Shown: positions 3,078 through 4,118 of the stretch, piece by piece
Position numbering within the stretch: position 1 is the stretch's first letter
Layout of the letters: every line of letters starts with the position of its first letter
Assembly (NCBI RefSeq): GCF_013410345.1
Contig: NZ_JACCFJ010000001.1
Span: 4,382,501 to 4,446,500, forward strand
DNA from: Saccharopolyspora hordei
GTDB taxonomy: Bacteria > Actinomycetota > Actinomycetes > Mycobacteriales > Pseudonocardiaceae
Length of the DNA stretch: 64,000 nt
Direction: 5' to 3'
The notes under the pieces: model-generated
Seen by the model: only the letters and a program-made list of their open reading frames with translations
Database searches by the model: none
Told to the model about the DNA's origin: nothing
Translations under genes and position numbers: made by a program

Positions 3078-4118
3078 TCAGTGCCTCGCGAGGGTGGCCG
3101 CCCTGGCCCGGCCGCAGGGCCGGTGCGGGCCCCGCTCGGAGGAGTCGTACCAGGCCGGGAGGTCCGCGGCGCGCCAGGGCTCCTCGGCGCGGCGGTCGCG
3201 GACCGCCACGCGGCCCGCGTGCAGCACGACCCGGACCTCGCCGGAGACCTGCTGCTGGGCGTCCGCGACGAAGGCGTCGAGCGCGTCGCGGAGCGGGGAG
3301 GACCACGTGCCGTCCAGGACCAGCCCTCTCCAGCGGTGCCCGACGGTCCGCTTGAAGCCGGCCAGGTCCCGTGCCAGCGTCAGCTCTTCCAGCGCCTGGT
3401 GCGCGGCGGTCAACGTGGTCGCGCCCGGGGTCGCGCAGTGGGCACCGGGGCCGTCCTGGTGCCCGACGCCGTGGGCGCCGGCGCGGCGGTTGAGCTCCTG
3501 GAGCGCCTGCCGCACCGTGACGGTCTCGCCGTCGAGGGCCACCGGCACGCCCCGGTCGAAGGTGATGGTCAGCTCCTCGGGGTCGAGGGGCCAGTCCGGT
3601 GCGCGCCAGAGGTCCCGCGGCACGCCGGGCTCGGCGACCCGGCCCCAGACGTTCTGCCGGAGCGCGCAGCGCGCCGCGCCGGTGCCCGCCCGCCGGTCGC
3701 GCACCGGGGCGAGGACCGTCAGGTGCGGCGCCAGCGCGGCGAGGTCGGCCGCGAGGGTGTCGTCCCCCGCGCAACCGTGGGCCGCGGCGTCCGCGCCGAA
3801 CCGCTCGGCGGCGACGACGAGGTGCCGGGCCACCAGCGGCCGGGCCAGCTCGGCGACCAGCGGGCACCGGCCCGCCTGCAGCGCGTGCGCCTGGAGCGCG
3901 GGCAGGCAGTGCTGCTCGGCGAACTCGTCCCGCGCGTCGACCACGAGCGCCTCGGTCGCCCCGGACTCGAGGGCGCGCCGGCGGACCGCAGCCAGGTTCT
4001 CGCCGCCCTGGCCGAGGTCGACCGTGACCGCCACGACCTCCGCGTCGGCGGCGAGCCGTGCGACGGCCGCGGACGCGTCCGGGTCGCCGGAGTAGGCGAG
4101 CACCACGCGCTCACTCAT
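3078..4118 (-). CDS. Degenerate argininosuccinate synthase paralogue
   Basis: Occupies the argG position (argR - here - argH) and is clearly homologous to argininosuccinate synthase, but is short (346 aa against about 400) and has lost key motifs. The ATP-pyrophosphatase P-loop, normally SGGLDTS, reads SGDPDAS at residues 10-16. After HGC at 114-116 the ATP/citrulline/aspartate-binding stretch (GKGNDQVRFE in the family) is absent. About 30 residues before QNVWGR are missing, and so is the conserved C-terminal tail (YDTGDTFDQS...KGF). Yet [13 protein letters not shown] and [11 protein letters not shown] remain well conserved and the frame is open. Probably not a working synthase; either a decaying gene or a repurposed paralogue, with a true argG elsewhere. 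Confidence 0.8.

Follow-up and report, generated by a model that had tools for sequence, protein, structure and literature searches.

The arginine operon and its argG slot

On the minus strand of the window (the whole 64,000-nucleotide stretch of Saccharopolyspora hordei DNA analyzed here) lies a cluster of arginine biosynthesis genes, in which the slot between argR and argH is occupied by a short argG homologue. The features of the locus, in window coordinates, are as follows.

1603..3024, minus strand: argH, argininosuccinate lyase, directly 3' of the short argG (TIGR00838, 595.5 bits, cut-off 279.5)
3078..4118, minus strand: short ArgG homologue of 346 aa beginning with ATG, predicted to be catalytically dead
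3081..3173, minus strand: disordered C-terminal stretch of this protein, residues 316-346, mostly unlike the canonical tail (pLDDT <50)
3186..3578, minus strand: C-terminal domain core, residues 181-311, kept in the predicted structure
3753..3770, minus strand: remnant AGDDTL at the expected site of the TGKGNDQVRFE loop
4071..4091, minus strand: altered P-loop SGDPDAS (SGGLDTS in active ArgG)
4127..4132, minus strand: GAGGAG, ribosome-binding-like stretch 5' of the ATG, from the sequence
4171..4686, minus strand: argR, arginine repressor, directly 5' of the short argG (NF002880, 258.7 bits, cut-off 200)
4683..5609, minus strand: argF, ornithine carbamoyltransferase (TIGR00658, 380.3 bits, cut-off 280.85)
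5609..6940, minus strand: argD, start uncertain (NF002874, 645.8 bits, cut-off 457)
6799..7710, minus strand: argB, start approximate (TIGR00761, 259 bits, cut-off 151.3)
7707..8867, minus strand: argJ (NF003802, 455.1 bits, cut-off 351)
about 9274-10303: argC, recognized by eye only

An earlier sequence-only reading of this DNA had described the operon as otherwise complete, which holds for argH, argR, argF, argD, argB and argJ, all above their NCBIfam cut-offs, while argC was placed by eye. A frame between argC and argJ (about 8867-9270, minus strand), also seen by eye, encodes a putative small ACT-domain protein, an unusual passenger for an arginine operon, and a DNA-3-methyladenine glycosylase gene lies directly after argH (945-1568, minus strand; 252.6 bits, cut-off 182). 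No operator-like inverted repeat was seen in the window's own spacer before argH. Such repeats do occur just 5' of argH in the related genome G012 (locus L087, about 3927-3986), where an exact 22-base palindrome is present twice, one copy overlapping the end of the short ORF, and looser operator-like repeats were seen by eye in the spacers before argH of G002, G014, G005, G006 and G015.

A short ArgG homologue with lost motifs and a predicted ArgG fold

The open frame and ribosomal context that had been pointed out for this gene are both present: 346 codons run from an ATG preceded by GAGGAG at 4127-4132, and in the alignment GAGGAGCAGAGCAGATG is found likewise in the relatives G004 and G013 at this ribosome-binding-like stretch. 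Alignment also bears out the proposed damage to the active site, with SGDPDAS in place of the P-loop SGGLDTS and a short unrelated stretch where active ArgG has GKGNDQVRFE. Also absent are the KKSPYSIDQN segment and the greater part of the VEDRLVGIKSR loop. At 398 aa, the intact operon ArgG of G021, a genome of the same genus, is 52 residues longer than the window protein, so the loss put at about 55 residues stands with a slightly different count; the C-terminal tail thought to be gone is instead replaced by mostly unlike sequence, the last 25-30 residues giving no convincing alignment with the canonical tail. Six argG-type NCBIfam models match the protein, each with a score below its cut-off; the best are 243.9 of 334 bits (NF001770) and 214.4 of 268.2 (TIGR00032).

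The fold, modelled for the window protein alone among the short forms, was predicted with a mean pLDDT of 81.9 and a pTM of 0.81; the C-terminal core (residues 181-311) reached block pLDDT values of 87-98, except for residues 221-230 (69). The best structure match of the model was 4xfj (TM 0.83 by query length, E 3.7e-35), the ArgG of Mycobacterium thermoresistibile. Measured against an active ArgG, the protein thus lacks the score, the P-loop SGGxDTS and the GKGNDQVRFE loop and has the ArgG fold, and loss of catalytic motifs with the fold kept is what characterizes a pseudoenzyme. The stops or frameshifts in the body that would mark a pseudogene were not found, with 0 internal stops in 7/7 copies of the genus. 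The window protein appears to be an ArgG by predicted fold, not by active site or score.

Among known proteins, the actinobacterial ArgG (NF001770 / TIGR00032; 4xfj) shares the operon slot and the fold with the short form, and the G021 operon ArgG has 50.8% tblastn identity to it over 376 columns. In contrast to that enzyme, the short form lacks the P-loop motif, the KGNDQVRFE loop, further loops and the tail, and stays below both cut-offs. It is not a member of argG_rel (NF038212), an ArgG relative kept apart from the enzyme by NCBI, because it scores 126.6 against a cut-off of 425.

A second ArgG of the E. coli type

A profile search of the complete genome (5.78 Mb) gave two PF00764 places, the short argG and another 0.6 Mb off. 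The genome-wide search for a second argG proposed earlier thus recovered a complete gene, whose 472 aa product carries SGGLDTS and TFKGNDIERF and scores 849.9 bits against the E. coli-type model NF003779 (cut-off 657). This enzyme is a distant relative of the short form (58.3 bits for the same model) and differs from it in its complete active-site motifs and its other locus. Because the genome holds a complete second ArgG, the operon copy is probably not needed by the organism for catalysis. An E. coli-type ArgG is present in 37/37 genomes with a short form versus 9/25 with a canonical operon argG, the latter being a hand-picked set.

States of the slot in Saccharopolyspora

Orthologues of the short form, expected by the sequence-only reading, were found in the same slot of related genomes. 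Of 22 genomes compared within the genus, three have an intact argG between argR and argH (G010, G020, G021), seven a short form (G000, G002, G003, G004, G012, G013, G014) and two fragments (G005, G019), and in the other ten no copy was detectable. Twenty of the 22 have a PF00764 match with the low score characteristic of the E. coli type; G010 and G020, the exceptions, both carry an intact operon gene. In the ten genomes without argG, argH is found at its expected place, with a gap of -4 to 330 nt. Since 12 of the 22 genomes hold fragments or nothing in the slot, the gene appears to be dispensable over longer times.

Simple decay was expected at first, from an argH identity of 95% against 72% for the short form and an apparent stop in three copies, and was dropped when the single TGA of G003, G004 and G013 proved to be the normal frame end, all seven short forms being open from start to stop. 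The alternative of decay and loss that had been set against a new role is thus seen elsewhere in the genus, in the two genomes with fragments and the ten with nothing detectable.

Two observations concern argH itself. In G005 (L107), a genome with argG fragments only, argH is split between two frames (residues 1-133 and 138-472), through a frameshift or a sequencing error, and a second ArgH-like gene with 55% identity to the operon ArgH was found in G008 (C39) and G018 (C205).

Short forms across the family

A PF00764 match was found in 385/390 genomes of the family, a group of soil actinomycetes. From these, 45 with two such matches, the best of them weaker than canonical ArgG, were chosen and searched with the window protein, and the survey covers the 30 highest-ranking loci, which come from 30 genomes. 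All 30 have argF and argR upstream and argH downstream. In three of them (G097, G106, G108) 533-739 nt separate the end of the argR match from the short frame, and this interval may hold something else. The frames measure 291-360 aa in 28/30 loci and 212-213 aa in G114 and G119, which are without the N-terminal part. On the argF/argR/argH tree (FastTree; several nodes weak) short and canonical states are interleaved, which suggests independent origins of the short form, six as a cautious minimum and about ten as the likely number.

C-terminal fragments were seen in G131, G148, G150, G167 and G174 (about positions 154-244 of profile A1) and in G121 (151-314), and are possibly later stages of loss. 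Outside the family, a short-form profile run against 150 genomes of the order, of which 86 matched, gave no clear short form; this profile also matches active ArgG, within the family the same search returned one known short form (G106), and G439, G440 and G488, whose matches were weaker or split, lie outside that count.

Selection on the short forms

Six of the short forms of the genus (without G003) make up one clade of the argF-argR-argH tree with a support of 100, and its branches were placed after the loss of catalysis because the P-loop changes and several deletions are common to it. Omega in this clade was 0.27 with position-specific codon frequencies (F3x4) and 0.44 with overall frequencies (F1x4), and omega = 1 was rejected with both (2dlnL 110 and 45.7). 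A model with two site classes fitted far better (2dlnL 75 and 78), placing 68-69% of codons at an omega of 0.07-0.13 and the remainder at 0.8-1.4. Changes at codon positions 1, 2 and 3 amounted to 0.139, 0.113 and 0.193. The short-form omega of 0.28 is about fivefold that on active ArgG branches (0.052), argH and argF evolved at an omega of 0.04-0.11 along the branches of the short clade, and the clade has gained GC at codon positions 1 and 2, a sign of relaxed selection.

Single branches differ. The window's own branch has an omega of 0.26-0.50 (2dlnL versus 1 of 22.0 and 6.4); the F1x4 value (0.50) is moderately different from 1 and not different from 0.7 (2dlnL 1.6). The G013 branch gave 0.25-0.42 and the G012 branch 0.30-0.44 (2dlnL versus 1 of 5.0 and 2.9, the F1x4 value not significant). 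The G004 (S. hirsuta) branch, at 0.81-1.03, is compatible with neutrality, and the N-terminal half of G003 has an omega of 1.12.

As a neutral null, a copy was evolved on the tree of the six-species clade under three base compositions in 36 runs, giving a mean omega of 0.68-0.83 (F3x4) and 0.89-1.08 (F1x4), and changes at position 2 were as frequent as those at position 3 or more so. Because F3x4 thus biases omega downward, the F1x4 values are set beside it throughout. These runs were over-diverged (a mean of 0.24-0.26 differences per site, versus 0.148 in the data), and the stop count was repeated at matched divergence with 500 runs per setting and frameshifts left out of the simulation. Under these settings 52/3000 neutral sets of six copies were free of stops, as the real set is (7/2000 at an equilibrium GC of 0.65-0.75, 45/1000 at 0.85); at larger divergence the counts were 8/3000, and 0/36 in the first runs. 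An open frame in six related copies is unlikely to come from neutral drift.

Gap lengths are in keeping with a maintained frame in the closest trio, where 11/11 coding gaps are multiples of three versus 0/8 in the spacer before argH, counts in which pairs share events. In 15 further pairs (identity >= 0.85) 16/26 coding gaps are multiples of three; as all frames are uninterrupted, the other ten must either compensate one another within the frame or be alignment effects. Between more distant pairs, gap lengths cannot be relied on.

A second clade, of 12 genomes of genus g30, has an omega of 0.19-0.25 (2dlnL 386-528 versus omega = 1), with the last 28 codons, at 0.86, as an internal control. The C-terminal tail of these proteins is conserved and was considered as a new protein motif, which the codon-position rates and the omega of 0.86 led us to reject: over these 28 codons and the spacer to argH (loci among L128-L156), differences by codon position were 0.056, 0.149 and 0.128. 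This pattern suggests that what is conserved ahead of argH is an element of the DNA or RNA, and the tail is for that reason left out of the argument.

Selection on the short ArgG appears to be weak but real. Omega near 1, as in a pseudogene, was not found in either clade, the G004 branch alone being compatible with it. The dN/dS comparison suggested beforehand thus speaks, as the sequence-only reading had supposed, against ordinary decay, with selection on amino acids detected at an omega of 0.27-0.44 and no stops.

Convergent loss and retention

Retention was scored at 292 positions where no more than one of 25 canonical proteins deviates, and averaged over ten lineages defined from the tree. 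It was highest, at 0.79-0.82, in three blocks, namely DARDEF..ANAL, the GVPVAIDGETV block and the helices of the C-terminal domain, and lowest in the KGNDQVRFE loop (0.17), positions 151-190 (0.21) and 191-215 (0.09), the VEDRLVGIKSR-YEAPG loop (0.26) and the tail (0.20). Intermediate values were found for positions 17-60 (0.59) and 97-118 (0.57) and for the P-loop (0.50), in which T15 is kept at 0.06 and G11 at 0.84; because the P-loop is only half lost on average, the dead site of some lineages would rest on other loops. K121, G122, N123, Q125, E259 and R261-S267 are retained in no lineage and Y87 in 8%, and E216, F221, G224, P226, H283, E287, K299, W306, W315, P318 and D324 are retained in all (to two decimals). 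Random decay, acting on each lineage by itself, would hardly produce such a shared pattern. The lost loops include those that bind citrulline and aspartate in solved structures of ArgG. As these are lost most consistently, in about ten lineages, the citrulline/arginine sensor that had been offered as one new role is unlikely.

A probable recurrent ArgG pseudoenzyme

From the lost motifs, the second ArgG, the shared slot, the open frames, the constraint and the recurrence described above, we infer an order of replacement, a protein that is made and a contact function, and think it probable that the short form is a recurrent ArgG pseudoenzyme, in which a second ArgG took over catalysis and the core was kept for a non-catalytic contact job. 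The short gene would be the original argG of the operon, freed from enzymatic duty because the E. coli-type ArgG encoded elsewhere would make the argininosuccinate. The substrate and ATP sites would then have been lost through substitutions and in-frame deletions of loops, leaving a translated and folded ArgG core, made of the scaffold of the nucleotide-binding domain and the C-terminal domain, on which purifying selection persists. This conversion would have been repeated several times in the family, with largely the same loops lost and the same core retained, and the protein would act by non-catalytic contact through that core. As partner we would guess at ArgH first, because argH follows in all 37 loci, and at the E. 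coli-type ArgG second; the idea of an ArgH partner, also raised by the sequence-only reading, agrees with the fixed position next to argH. Much the same picture would arise if the core were conserved merely for the solubility of a protein that is being made.

A more far-reaching version, possible and put forward tentatively, is that the active ArgG of these actinomycetes also served a non-catalytic purpose for which the E. coli-type ArgG is no substitute, such as holding on to ArgH or adjusting the arginine pathway. After catalysis had passed to the second ArgG, the operon copy would have been pared down to this role, separately in six or more lineages.

The strongest competing explanation, which we find rather unlikely, is a slow decay in which the frame is kept for operon reasons and the product has no function: stops and frameshifts in mid-operon would be selected against for harming argH expression, aggregation-prone missense changes would be selected against while the protein is still made, and in-frame deletions would shrink the gene until it is lost whole. 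The series of 3 intact, 7 short, 2 fragmentary and 10 empty slots in the 22 genomes of the genus is what such a course would leave, as are the in-frame indels of the closest trio, the elevated omega, the higher GC at positions 1 and 2, the nearly neutral G004 branch and the fact that a folded core is what is kept. Selection on the frame alone, however, predicts an omega near 1 and even rates among codons, whereas values of 0.19-0.44 were seen in two clades and 68-69% of the codons of the first are strongly constrained. Where argG is absent (10 genomes, gap of -4 to 330 nt) argH is normally placed, which argues that a filler is not needed, and the residues kept throughout include many with charged or polar side chains (E216, D230, H283, E287, K299, D324), not just ones that form the core.

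Plain pseudogene decay, with a frame left open by chance in a GC-rich genome, is far less credible. GC-rich sequence does hold few chance stops, long overlapping ORFs lie on both strands here, and 45/1000 neutral sets stayed stop-free at an equilibrium GC of 0.85; over all compositions, however, the matched-divergence figure is 52/3000 with frameshifts not simulated, omega = 1 is rejected in two clades (the single G004 branch still being compatible with it), and retention is convergent. Least credible of all is an enzyme with altered or new chemistry, in the manner of the nitrile synthetase ArtA (9leh/9lei), which has the same fold under another name and presumably another reaction: the predicted fold is kept and the P-loop is near-intact in some lineages (SGGLDSS in G400), but K121, G122, N123 and Q125 survive in no lineage, Y87 in 8% and T15 of the P-loop in 6%, and the P-loop and substrate loops of the window protein are all changed or gone.

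Pseudoenzymes derived from replaced metabolic enzymes are known in general. Such proteins have lost active-site motifs, kept their fold and remain under selection on their sequence, as appears to hold for the short ArgG, which is described here from its sequence and predicted fold and differs in arising beside a second enzyme of the same function, repeatedly and in one operon slot. In the titles and abstract openings of the literature, with subscription journals mostly outside this coverage, no report of such a protein was apparent. It is the repeated convergent origin in one operon slot that is unusual.

If our reading of a recurrent pseudoenzyme is right, it carries a warning for annotation, since genes in the argG slot may be mistaken for a working enzyme or for junk when the working gene lies elsewhere. 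Saccharopolyspora, with intact, dead, fragmentary and absent states of the slot, offers a ready comparison. Were the active ArgG to have had a second job, the dead copies would be natural separation-of-function mutants that expose a hidden role of a textbook enzyme, and the second function of a core enzyme would be readable from the parts that survive the loss of catalysis, in an experiment repeated by nature.
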